A DNA stretch of 64,000 nucleotides, taken from the NCBI RefSeq assembly GCF_000763055.1, contig NZ_KN214139.1, forward strand, positions 1 through 64,000, given 5' to 3'. The position numbers and the translations under genes were made by a program. A model generated the notes under the pieces. It was not told the origin of the DNA, searched no databases, and saw only the letters and a program-made list of their open reading frames with translations. Positions 47,905 to 63,879 of the stretch are shown one piece after another. Position 1 is the stretch's first letter; every line of letters starts with the position of its first letter. This DNA is from Collinsella sp. 4_8_47FAA (lineage in GTDB: Bacteria; Actinomycetota; Coriobacteriia; Coriobacteriales; Coriobacteriaceae).

Positions 47905-47988
47905 GAGGTCGGGACATATCATCCCGTCCTCAAACATTCTCGGCCTTCGGCCTGCGAAACTGCGGGCGGGACGATATGTCCCGACCTC
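47905..47988. repeat. 84-nt inverted repeat with CGGGACAT arms (element F)
   Basis: Arms of about 24 bp (GAGGTCGGGACATATC... and its complement) with two G-U-type differences, and an inner GGCC-TTC-GGCC hairpin near the centre. It ends 15 bases before the nrdG start and overlaps its upstream region. Outer arms recall element H. Confidence 0.7.
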
Positions 47989-48166: not shown

Positions 48167-48304
48167 GGCCGCCCCGTAGCGAGGCCCCGGACCTTTGCTC
48201 GATATGAGTTCCGCACGAACAGGAGGCGCCAGTGGCGCCTCCGTCGTGAGCCAGGACTGTCCGAAATAGCGAGTAAAGGTCCGGGGCCTCGCTACGGGGC
48301 GGCC
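48167..48304. repeat. 138-nt element with perfect 30-bp arms (element E)
   Basis: 48167-48196 and 48275-48304 are perfect reverse complements over 30 bases, ending GGCCGCCCCGTAGCGAGG. Within, GGAGGCGCC-AGT-GGCGCCTCC (48222-48242) forms a separate perfect hairpin. An asymmetric internal loop joins them. It lies 11 bases past the nrdD stop. A stem this long is far more than a terminator needs, and no T-run follows. Confidence 0.8.
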
Positions 48305-48315
48305 TGGGATGGTTA

Positions 48316-50538
48316 TTAGAGATGCAGCACGCGGTCGCGGATCTCCTCGGTTCGACCCTGGTTCCAGAACTGGGTACCGATGTAGCCGCACGTACGACGG
48401 GCGACGTTCATCTTCTCCTGGTCACGATTGCCACAGTTGGGGCACTCCCACACCAGCTTGCCGTCATCCTCGACAATCTTGATCTCACCGTCGTAGCCGC
48501 ACACCTGGCAGTAATCGCTCTTGGTGTTGAGCTCGGCGTACATGATGTTGTCGTAGATGTACTGCATCACGCGGATGACAGCCTTGAGGTTGTCCTGCAT
48601 GTTGGGAACCTCGACGTAGGAGATGGCACCGCCCGGCGAAAGCTGCTGGAACATACCCTCGAATTTGAGCTTGTCGAATGCGTCGATCTCCTCGGACACG
48701 TGGACGTGGTAGCTGTTGGTGATGTAGCCCTTGTCCGTCACGCCCGGGATGATGCCAAAACGACGCTGCAGGCACTTGGCGAACTTGTAGGTCGTCGACT
48801 CAAGCGGGGTACCGTACAGCGAGAAGTCAATATCGCTTTCGGCCTTCCACTCCGCGCACTTGTCGTTCATGCGCTGCATGACGGCCATGGCAAAGGGCGT
48901 GCCCTCCTTCTCGGTGTGGCTGTGGCCCGTCATGTACTTGACGCACTCATACAGGCCGGCATAACCCAGACTAATGGTGGAGTAACCGCCCACGAGCAGC
49001 TTGTCGATCGTCTCGCCCTTCTTCAGGCGGGCGAGGGCACCGTACTGCCAAAGAATCGGCGCGGCATCCGAAAGCGTACCCATCAGACGCTCATGACGGC
49101 ACAGCAGGGCGCGGTGGCATAGCTCAAGGCGCTCGTCGAAGATCTTCCAGAACTTGTCCATGTCCTGATGCGAGCTCAGCGCGACATCAGGCAGGTTAAT
49201 GGTCACAACGCCCTGGTTAAAGCGGCCATAGTACTTGGGCTTGTTTGGGTCATAGTTCAGCGCGTTGGCCACGTTGTTAAATCCGTTACCGGAGCGGTCG
49301 GGCGTCAGGAAGCTGCGGCAGCCCATGCAGGTATAGCAGTCGCCGTTGCCCGCGGTCTCGCCCTTCGACAGCTTGAGCTCGCGCATCTTCTTCTCGGAGA
49401 TGTAGTCGGGCACCATGCGCTTGGCGGTGCACTTAGCGGCCAGCTGGGTCAGGTAGAAGTACGGGGAATTCTCGTGAACGTTATCGTCCTCGAGCACATA
49501 GATGAGCTTGGGGAATGCCGGGGTAATCCATACGCCGGCCTCGTTCTTAACGCCCTCGTAGCGCTGGCGAAGCGTCTCCTCCACGATCATGGCAAGGTCG
49601 TGCTTCTCCTGAGGCGTACGGGCCTCGTTAAGATACATAAAGACCGTCACGAACGGCGCCTGGCCGTTGGTGGTCATAAGAGTTACGACCTGATACTGAA
49701 TCGTCTGAACGCCGCGACGGATCTCGTCACGCAGGCGGTCCTCAACAACCTCGCGGACCTTTTCGGGAGATGCGGAAACGCCGAGCTCCTCGAGCTCGCG
49801 GGCGACCTCGCCGCGAATCTTCTGACGGCTCACCTCAACAAACGGAGCAAGATGGGTCAGCGAAATCGACTGGCCGCCGTACTGGGAGGAAGCAACCTGA
49901 GCGATAATCTGCGTCGCGATGTTGCAGGCGGTCGAGAAGCTGTGCGGCTTCTCGATCAGCGTGCCCGAGATAACGGTGCCGTTCTGGAGCATGTCCTCCA
50001 GGTTCACCAGGTCGCAGTTGTGCATGTGCTGAGCAAAGTAATCCGAATCATGGAAGTGGATCAGGCCCTCATTATGGGCGTCCACGATCTCCTGGGGCAG
50101 CAGCACGCGCTGGGTCAGGTCCTTGGAAATCTCGCCGGCCATATAGTCGCGCTGAACGGAGTTGACGGTCGGGTTCTTGTTGGAGTTCTCCTGCTTGACC
50201 TCTTCGTTATTGCACTCAATCAACGACAGGATCTTGTCATCGGTCGTGTTCTTCTGGCGCTTCAGGCTCTGAACATAGCGATAGATGATGTAGTGGCGGG
50301 CAACCTCGTAGCAGTCGAGACGCATGATCTCGTCCTCGACCAAATCCTGGATCTCCTCGACCGAAACGGTGTGGCCCGCGTTCTCGCATGCCTCGGCGAC
50401 GTTTTGCGCCGCATAAACCACCTGGCGGTCGGTTAGACGAGAGCTCTCCTCGACCTCCAAGTTGGCGGCGCGGATGGCATTGACGATCTTATCGATGTCA
50501 AAGACAACCTCGGTGCCGCTGCGCTTGATGATCTTCAT
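48316..50538 (-). CDS. nrdD: Anaerobic (class III) ribonucleoside-triphosphate reductase
   Basis: Makes deoxyribonucleotides under strict anaerobiosis using a glycyl radical. 740 residues. The N-terminal ATP-cone (MKIIKRSGTEVVFDIDKIVNAI to about 95) is followed by the 10-stranded barrel with CYTCMGCRSFLTPDRSG, a C-terminal zinc site (CQVCGYDG ... CPNCGNRD) and RRTCGYIGTQFW with the radical Gly. ATG 50538 has an AGAGG site upstream. An NrdR box lies about 260 bases upstream. Confidence 0.95.
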   Translation of the reverse strand: MKIIKRSGTEVVFDIDKIVNAIRAANLEVEESSRLTDRQVVYAAQNVAEACENAGHTVSVEEIQDLVEDEIMRLDCYEVARHYIIYRYVQSLKRQKNTTDDKILSLIECNNEEVKQENSNKNPTVNSVQRDYMAGEISKDLTQRVLLPQEIVDAHNEGLIHFHDSDYFAQHMHNCDLVNLEDMLQNGTVISGTLIEKPHSFSTACNIATQIIAQVASSQYGGQSISLTHLAPFVEVSRQKIRGEVARELEELGVSASPEKVREVVEDRLRDEIRRGVQTIQYQVVTLMTTNGQAPFVTVFMYLNEARTPQEKHDLAMIVEETLRQRYEGVKNEAGVWITPAFPKLIYVLEDDNVHENSPYFYLTQLAAKCTAKRMVPDYISEKKMRELKLSKGETAGNGDCYTCMGCRSFLTPDRSGNGFNNVANALNYDPNKPKYYGRFNQGVVTINLPDVALSSHQDMDKFWKIFDERLELCHRALLCRHERLMGTLSDAAPILWQYGALARLKKGETIDKLLVGGYSTISLGYAGLYECVKYMTGHSHTEKEGTPFAMAVMQRMNDKCAEWKAESDIDFSLYGTPLESTTYKFAKCLQRRFGIIPGVTDKGYITNSYHVHVSEEIDAFDKLKFEGMFQQLSPGGAISYVEVPNMQDNLKAVIRVMQYIYDNIMYAELNTKSDYCQVCGYDGEIKIVEDDGKLVWECPNCGNRDQEKMNVARRTCGYIGTQFWNQGRTEEIRDRVLHL

Positions 50539-51126
50539 CCTCTTGCCTCTTTCGCGTCGTAGCCTCATTGCGCTTCAGAGCCAAACGATGCCCGGCAGGG
50601 CTTGCCCCTGTCTTGCGGCGCCGTCGCGCAATCTGTGTTCTCGATAAACCATAAGCCTCCATGCGGACATTCCCTAGAGCCAATCAAGCGGCTCAAGGAC
50701 ACGTTCGAAAGAGGCAGTTAAGGTCTTCGTTCTCTGTCCGCCATCTATCATACGACAAAGACACATCTATATCCTGTATTCTTTTTTTAGTTCAAACACA
50801 ACATATAGTGTTTCAGCAGGTCAAAGCAATTGGTCATTTTCCAGACGCATTAATTATGAGGGGTTCTTGGCAAGTCGGTAAAACGTTACCAACACGGCTA
50901 CCTGCATGGCAGTTATAAAACCCCCTTAGTCAAGCCGCTGACAAATCCTACCAAAACCAAGCCGCTCACGCCAAAAGAATCCAAAAGATTATGCTTGACC
51001 AACATGTTGCGGTCACGATCGGCCAGGACGTATGCAATCTGCCGGCACCTCTACGGGATGCGAAGACCATCGCGTACAGACCTTGGATCAATATTTGGTG
51101 GCTTATTTGGCGGCGTGCTTGGTGGC
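50539..51126. other. Long nrdD upstream / tRNA downstream region
   Basis: Besides the NrdR box, no RNA gene or confident CDS is seen. A minus-strand frame 50913-51005 (30 codons, hydrophobic) reads smoothly but has no ribosome site, and may be a gene remnant. Confidence 0.4.
50796..50811. promoter_or_regulatory. NrdR box upstream of nrdD
   Basis: ACACAACATATAGTGT matches the NrdR consensus ACACWATATYTWGTGT closely. On the minus strand TTGAAC follows directly and TATAGA lies 18 bases beyond, a plausible promoter. A weaker second box may lie near 50762. Confidence 0.75.
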
Positions 51127-57014: not shown

Positions 57015-57104
57015 TGGTGTCGGAGGCGGGACTTGAACCCGCATGACCAAAAAGCGGTCACTAGCACCTCAAGCTAGCGCGTCTGCCAATTCCGCCACTC
57101 CGAC
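57015..57104 (-). tRNA. tRNA-Leu (GAG), CCA encoded
   Basis: Class II tRNA with a long variable arm (TGACCGC...GCGGTC-type pairing), acceptor GTCGGAG/CTCCGAC, anticodon loop TTGAGGT with GAG, and encoded CCA. 90 bases. Confidence 0.93.
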
Positions 57105-57162: not shown

Positions 57163-57212
57163 TAATAACCTATGATTCGAGAACTGTGCAAGCACTTTTT
57201 TCAAAAAAGTTT
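57163..57212 (-). promoter_or_regulatory. tRNA-Leu promoter with A-tract/GTnCTTGC element
   Basis: AAACTTTTTTGAAAAAAGTG precedes -35 TTGCAC; -10 TTATTA follows after 17 bases. About 50 bases of leader precede the tRNA. Confidence 0.65.
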
Positions 57213-57248: not shown

Positions 57249-57373
57249 GGCCCCGAATCGGTGTTGCCTCCCGGCGCGTCCTCGGGCATGAGCGATATTT
57301 TGCTGCGCACTTCGTGCTGCAAAATATCGCTCCCCCTGCGGAATGCGCCGGGAGGCAACACCGATTCGGGGCC
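57249..57373. repeat. 125-nt nested inverted repeat (element A)
   Basis: Outer arms of about 27 bp ending GGCCCCGAATCGG, a 12-bp inner stem GCGATATTTTGC/GCAAAATATCGC, and an apical hairpin with GCTGCGCACTTCGTGC (57302-57317). That 16-base apical sequence is the exact complement of the one in element B. Confidence 0.8.
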
Positions 57374-57434
57374 TGCAAATACATACTTCAGGCACAGTTC
57401 TCAAACATGTTCTGGGGGCTGATGCAAATTTGGT

Positions 57435-57453
57435 GGCTCGGCAAAGCCGAGCC
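57435..57453. repeat. Perfect 8-bp hairpin
   Basis: GGCTCGGC-AAA-GCCGAGCC. It sits between elements A and B. It is followed by CTTATATAA rather than a T-run. Confidence 0.6.
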
Positions 57454-57463
57454 CTTATATAAG

Positions 57464-57489
57464 GAGGCCGGAGCCAAAGCTCCGGCCTC
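57464..57489. repeat. Perfect 11-bp hairpin
   Basis: GAGGCCGGAGC-CAAA-GCTCCGGCCTC, ten bases after the preceding hairpin. No T-run. Confidence 0.65.
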
Positions 57490-57554
57490 ACTCAATTTCT
57501 CATCAGATTAAGTGAGCGATCGAGGAATCGCACTCCCCCTGCCGAGTTACCGCA

Positions 57555-57681
57555 GGGCCCGCCCTGAAGTTACTTTTCAGAACACTCCACAGGACGCAAG
57601 AAACCCCCGCCGCACGAAGTGCGCAGCGGGGGTTTCTTGCATGTCCGAGGACGTTCTGAAAAGTAACTTCAGGGCGGGCCC
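57555..57681. repeat. 127-nt element with perfect 29-bp arms (element B)
   Basis: 57555-57583 and 57653-57681 are perfect complements (GGGCCCGCCCTGAAGTTACT... ). A second perfect 15-bp stem GCAAGAAACCCCCGC/GCGGGGGTTTCTTGC (57596-57640) carries an apical hairpin with GCACGAAGTGCGCAGC (57612-57627). Its right end lies 16 bases beyond the oppF stop. It is more elaborate than any terminator. Confidence 0.8.
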
Positions 57682-57697
57682 GGACGATAACAACCGA

Positions 57698-58725
<1,028 letters not shown>

Positions 58726-58726
<1 letters not shown>

Positions 58727-63640: not shown

Positions 63641-63879
63641 GCCATCCTCCTTATGAGATAGGACAAAGTAAGTTCGGTCGGGCAACGTCAAGACAGCCCA
63701 ATCGAACCATTCAAACGCGGTCCGCCGTTTTGGCTGGTTATACAAAGCGGGCCAACGTATTGCAATATAGTAGCGCATTTTATGCACGATTTGGGGCTAA
63801 TTCCGGTTAACGGTCGAGATTTTCTTTAGTTGGGCGAAGTATATGAGGATATTTTGACTCTGTTACAAATATGTAAACA

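Follow-up and report, generated by a model that had tools for sequence, protein, structure and literature searches.

The window (the whole stretch of DNA analysed, 64,000 nucleotides) contains two giant hairpins, elements A and B, between an oppF-like gene for an oligopeptide ABC transporter ATPase (57698–58726, minus strand, assigned from its translation) and a tRNA gene (57018–57104, minus strand, Rfam, family level only). The stop codon of the oppF-like gene precedes element B (57555–57681, minus strand; covariance model match at 57577–57659, minus strand, 95 bits), which has the same orientation as that gene. Read on the minus strand, B consists of the 5' arm of a perfect 29-bp outer stem, P1 (57653–57681), a left internal-loop motif, GTCCTCGGACAT (57641–57652), the 5' arm of a perfect 15-bp inner stem, P2 (57626–57640), an apical hairpin, TGC-GCAC(TTC)GTGC-G (57611–57625), the 3' arm of P2 (57596–57610), a right internal-loop motif, GTC-CTGTGGA-GT (57584–57595), and the 3' arm of P1 (57555–57583). 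Element A (57249–57373, plus strand; R1 covariance model match at 57271–57351, plus strand, 98 bits) sits beyond B, before the tRNA gene, which is of opposite sense. Its parts are a 29-bp P1 (57249–57277 with 57345–57373), left motif GTCCTCGGGCAT (57278–57289), P2 (57290–57303 with 57319–57332), apical hairpin TGC-GCAC(TTC)GTGC-T (57304–57318), and right motif CCC-CTGCGGA-AT (57333–57344), all on the plus strand. The arms of A (57249–57306 and 57316–57373) are 83% complementary overall, and its 29-bp outer and 14-bp inner stems are perfect.

Each element on its own strand (A plus, B minus) thus has the layout P1 of about 29 bp, left motif GTCCTCGGRCAT, P2, apex TGC-GCAC(TTC)GTGC, P2', right motif YCCTGYGGARW, and P1'. 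Folding energies are −109.7 kcal/mol for A (z = −16.2) and −111.1 kcal/mol for B (z = −18.2), and no shuffled sequence folded as well in either case. The 16-mer common to A and B comprises the apex and the ends of P2 and has just these two occurrences in the window, oppositely oriented (shuffle mean of 0.17 with two mismatches allowed). Folding scores and 16-mer count confirm the sequence-only reading, which had described paired large hairpins with a common 16-base apex in opposite orientation and perfect stems in B. A genome-wide search for the 11-mer core of the apex, GCACGAAGTGC, found six occurrences in 2.28 Mb, all at the apices of long hairpins and hence not mostly outside palindromes; the reversed control occurred once. 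Two inverted repeats were also observed around the elements. One of 17 nt lies outside B (57517–57533 and 57710–57726), its arms being the final codons of the oppF-like gene and a downstream copy, and is still present in a related locus where B is absent (L081). The other, of 14 nt (57176–57189 and 57392–57405), flanks A on both sides, with its upstream arm just before the tRNA gene in what is apparently the promoter region.

A and B represent a single element that is dispersed in the genome. Searching the genome for the left motif turned up more copies, alike in layout but with other stems, and five copies of the long-stem form were used to construct R1. This model matched 13 places in the source genome (best strand), 9–18 in nearly all related genomes carrying the family, 26 of the 45 genomes of the genus, and none in the other five genera sampled from the bacterial family. 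In a pattern scan of named genomes, carriers among the matches listed belong to the Collinsella aerofaciens complex; one listed match from Oscillospiraceae is coding-like and without a hairpin, and was taken as chance. An assembly artefact is ruled out by the occurrence of the elements at the same loci in many independent isolates, including the near-closed genomes G001, G002, and G025. Only tRNAs in the window matched Rfam at the gathering score, and relaxed thresholds, applied to the window and related loci, yielded no relevant family, with sub-threshold microRNA-type matches reflecting the long hairpins. No prior description in Collinsella or Coriobacteriia was found in the open-licence literature. 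A 400-kb section of the source genome (L294–L313; G000:C1, 1–400 kb) was examined alongside a 400-kb outgroup sample.

P1 has a median length of 29 bp among 154 distinct copies. Across 83 distinct inner modules, GTCCTCG and CTGCGGA in the internal loop are near-invariant and accompany ~30 different P2 sequences. Bases adjacent to the loop covary (GGAC/GTCC, GGG/CCC, ACCA/TGGT, and GCAC/GTGC), as does the apical stem (GCAC/GTGC, GCGC/GCGC, and CTCC/GGAG) around a TTC or TAC loop. The apex had been proposed as the fixed part of the element; since the apical stem covaries and the internal loop is near-invariant, a fixed internal loop, GTCCTCG...CTGCGGA, is the better description. The outer arms of A and B had been called unrelated, and they do differ, yet a weak common pattern runs through ~190 copies. 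Identical inner modules occur at unlinked loci (GTCGGAAGCCCC at four and GCAAGAAGCCCT at three), suggesting that modules are exchanged among copies. Near-invariant loops on covarying stems likewise suggest that something recognises the loops. The earlier idea of a recognised feature on variable stems therefore stands for loops that hardly vary on stems that do, and this internal loop recurs in the six genera sampled.

The distance from the stop codon of a gene on the same strand to the start of the left motif is 38–63 nt at 14 of 16 loci; A and the L043 locus are the exceptions. Upstream genes identified with Pfam code for a MIP channel, Cpn60 (GroEL), Pta, fructose-bisphosphate aldolase, PEP carboxylase, phosphofructokinase, a TPP enzyme (PFOR-like by sequence), a glycyl-radical protein, an Fe-ADH, and a class IV aminotransferase; translations added OppF and ThrB- and Asd-like proteins. 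These host genes are mainly metabolic (fba, pfkA, pta, PFOR, GroEL, and PEPC among them) and, judging by their identity, are probably highly expressed. Sense orientation at this distance from stop codons fits the processing signal that had been offered as one function, or a 3'-end role. An obvious T-tract terminator is present inside the element at six of the 16 loci (two copies examined at each), so the elements probably do not all serve in termination.

Related genomes differ at these loci. Downstream of pta, the element occurs with two alternative stem sets that are unrelated, and five genomes have a common deletion in which the hairpin and downstream sequence are lost. Other species carry a short-stem form (G029) or a 40-bp hairpin that lacks the loop (G031) at pta, and a simple terminator-like hairpin is found in G019, G039, and G041. 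At L081, the locus without B, the junction lies at a GCCCTG repeat. Neither precise unoccupied sites nor target duplications were found; element-free sites resemble deletions at the two loci compared in detail.

Several copies are interrupted by other mobile elements. An insertion that starts with ACGCTCC splits the right loop of the B copies of G001, G004, G010, and G013 at one shared position, and in G001 and G010 the pta copies are broken at this position too. The insert in G004 and G001 contains pieces of an IS110-type transposase and an IstB-like gene. A different insertion interrupts the apex in G027 and G035 and is IS3-like on its end sequence alone. The element is thus a landing site for other mobile elements, as are REP repeats, into which insertion sequences of the IS110 and IS3 families are known to insert (PMC1525189). 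In six sequences from two loci (L080, L083, L092, L095, L369, and L371), the insertion start ACGCTCCTATTTGGCAAGG was seen at one right-loop position.

No mobilising enzyme or cognate transposase was found for the element itself. REP-type Y1 transposases (Pfam Y1_Tnp) have matches in 39 of the 45 genomes, element-positive and element-negative alike, and no copies of the family occur near Y1 genes at the loci around ~19 of these matches. They were rejected as mobilisers, being associated with neither carriage nor flanking of the element. A transposition signal, the other function that had been offered, finds no backing in these results or in the deletion-like appearance of element-free sites. 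A 36-bp perfect hairpin unrelated to the A/B family was observed near a REP-type Y1 gene (L345, 1215–1337; L355, 2517–2639).

Patterns of change in the stems were compared among 20 aligned copies. Paired cells make up 97.7%, compared to 71.1% in shuffled alignments, and 278 cells are altered on both sides, compared to 77; sliding the partner by 1–3 columns in either direction reduces this number to 30–62. One-sided (G-U) cells number only two out of 1,020. At orthologous loci with 94%–98% identical upstream sequence, the P1 arms differ at many columns and are still complementary. Pairwise comparisons at the A locus yielded 627 two-sided and 70 one-sided changes, and P1 mismatches number 38 G-T, 37 A-C, and 44 of other kinds, both counts coming from related sequences and so including non-independent events. 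P1 mismatches accordingly show no wobble preference (G-T is about equal to A-C). In L047, the left loop is ACTCCGCAGGAC, the exact complement of its own right loop, and this 12-nt loop has been converted to a perfect palindrome; the orthologs L113, L136, and L158 keep GTCCTCGGACAT at this position. This is the one clear loop conversion in ~190 copies, and a single footprint.

Template switching has been proposed to create and maintain hairpins (Monttinen & Loytynoja 2022, PMC8794818). A palindromic loop of the L047 type is the footprint expected from fold-back template switching, and multi-base concerted conversion is evident in both the 12-nt loop and the concerted arms. An RNA stem under selection would tolerate G-U pairs; these are nearly absent, and G-T equals A-C, which argues against pair-by-pair RNA selection and for template-switch conversion. 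Selection at the DNA level for cruciforms would equally give G-T equal to A-C. Maintenance by template switching appears to be the best-supported account of the stems, short of proof.

Related hairpins were identified in the window and beyond the genus. A hairpin with 39-nt, 95% complementary arms (48167–48304, minus strand) comes directly after an nrdD-like gene (48316–50568, minus strand) and has a different loop set, read on the minus strand as CGGACAGTCCTG / GTGCGGAACTC. Another, at 47905–47988, has 28-nt arms and a diverged core (match to R2, a core covariance model, at 47930–47965, plus strand). Both look like related subtypes. A third hairpin family, with loop ctcgctcacggcttcgcagggtcgcg and variable stems of 22–30 bp, was observed at C1 315354 and 316259, with a similar loop at 63667. 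The pattern GTCCTCG-palindrome-CCTGCGGA exceeds its reversed control in all six genera sampled from the bacterial family, which carry a form with the same internal loop and shorter stems than the R1 form; the 20 places read for this wider pattern have long stems and are mostly past stop codons. Strong R2 matches (E < 1e-5) among 198 genomes of the phylum are confined to this bacterial family, and weaker scattered matches outside the family are at chance level. Several copies of the core motif GTCCTCGGCGC..GCGCCTGCGGA past a stop codon were noted in another family of the class (L443, 1500–1650) and are possible relatives, although R2 did not confirm this.

Our preferred reading adds a function to the structure, copy number, concerted evolution, and position described above: A and B would belong to a family of giant hairpins just past stop codons that act at mRNA 3' ends, a proposal to which we give an even chance. 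DNA would fold back during replication and one arm would be copied from the other by template-switch conversion, and this copying is the proposed reason that the arms stay complementary. Exchange of inner modules among copies may assist arm matching, and selection against conversions that erase the loops would keep these in place. Once transcribed, the hairpin would be bound at its loop by a putative host factor and would protect the mRNA 3' end, define it, or flag it for processing; some inner stems, having a T-tract, would act as terminators too. The 3'-end function and the loop-binding factor are inferred. A broader version, which we hold with somewhat less confidence, extends this to the whole bacterial family: self-repairing 3'-end hairpins whose GTCCTCG/CTGCGGA loop is read by a putative host factor would control the ends of central metabolic mRNAs in Collinsella and related genera, with stem sequences free to drift because fold-back replication, as proposed, keeps the arms matched.

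Strong covariation, sense orientation past stop codons, and conserved loops would also be expected of a structured RNA, such as an RNase III or 3'-exonuclease barrier, under ordinary base-pair selection with compensatory changes fixed one by one. We consider this unlikely given the long and nearly perfect stems, the scarcity of G-U pairs (2/1,020 cells), the equality of G-T and A-C mismatches, and the 12-nt block conversion in L047. That equality sits well with a DNA cruciform recognised as duplex or hairpin DNA, whether for supercoil absorption or by a nucleoid or replication protein, with transcription irrelevant: there is no strand-specific wobble preference, and repeated IS insertion at one loop position shows that a DNA site is recognised. 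The sense orientation and fixed stop-codon distance at 14 of 16 loci are left unexplained by a cruciform, and we judge it no more probable than the RNA account.

Much the same low probability attaches to a miniature mobile element of the REPIN or MITE type, with loops bound by a single-strand-hairpin transposase and copies spread past stop codons. Dispersal at 9–18 copies per genome, inner modules common to unlinked loci, presence/absence variation, and the REP-type Y1 transposases of the genus are all in its favour, but most copies are at common loci, the element-free sites at L081 (GCCCTG junction) and pta resemble deletions, Y1 genes are also found in element-negative genomes and without flanking copies at the loci examined, and the family is absent from the viral contigs searched. 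Plain intrinsic terminators with over-long stems are the least credible explanation, and very improbable. Inner stems such as AAAAAGCCTCGC..GCGAGGCTTTTT do resemble bidirectional terminators, and relatives without the element often carry a simple terminator in its position; however, 10 of the 16 loci have no T-tract terminator inside the copies examined, the usual pta terminator lies further downstream of the element, and a terminator would not need the conserved internal loop.

The hairpin family provides a natural multi-copy system for following long hairpins whose two arms change together with hardly any wobble intermediates. The origin and persistence of perfect hairpins is a long-standing question that is directly testable in the Collinsella elements. 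Should a protein read the loop, core metabolic genes of a common human gut bacterium would carry a 3'-end signal that has not been described before. The elements also explain why insertion sequences land repeatedly at certain sites in Collinsella genomes, and may explain some of the breaks in their assemblies.

Comparison with known systems reveals partial likenesses. Like intrinsic (Rho-independent) terminators, the Collinsella elements are found past stop codons and some of their inner stems have T-tracts; unlike them, they have a giant outer stem and a conserved internal loop, and no T-tract at most loci examined. Integron attC sites resemble them in shape, with a folded single-strand form, conserved unpaired features, and sequence-variable stems, whereas the Collinsella elements are single and follow host genes. 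REP/BIME/REPIN and ERIC sequences are likewise dispersed intergenic hairpins near gene ends and targets of insertion sequences. REPs are described as palindromic repeats of 20–40 bp classed according to a conserved tag at one of their ends (PMC3733652); the Collinsella elements differ in having stems of 29 and 15 bp that vary freely and loops that are conserved. Stem sequence is not conserved among copies, no Y1 gene at the loci examined has the repeat on its flanks, and Y1 matches are not limited to genomes with the element. The element works like a REP-type intergenic hairpin yet departs from that group in two defining features, the conserved stem and the associated transposase. A parallel in mode of change is with the hairpins of PMC8794818, in which both arms also change in concert and loop changes are rare; those are rRNA and microRNA hairpins, and the elements described here form a multi-copy bacterial intergenic family with stems of ~29 bp and conserved internal loops.
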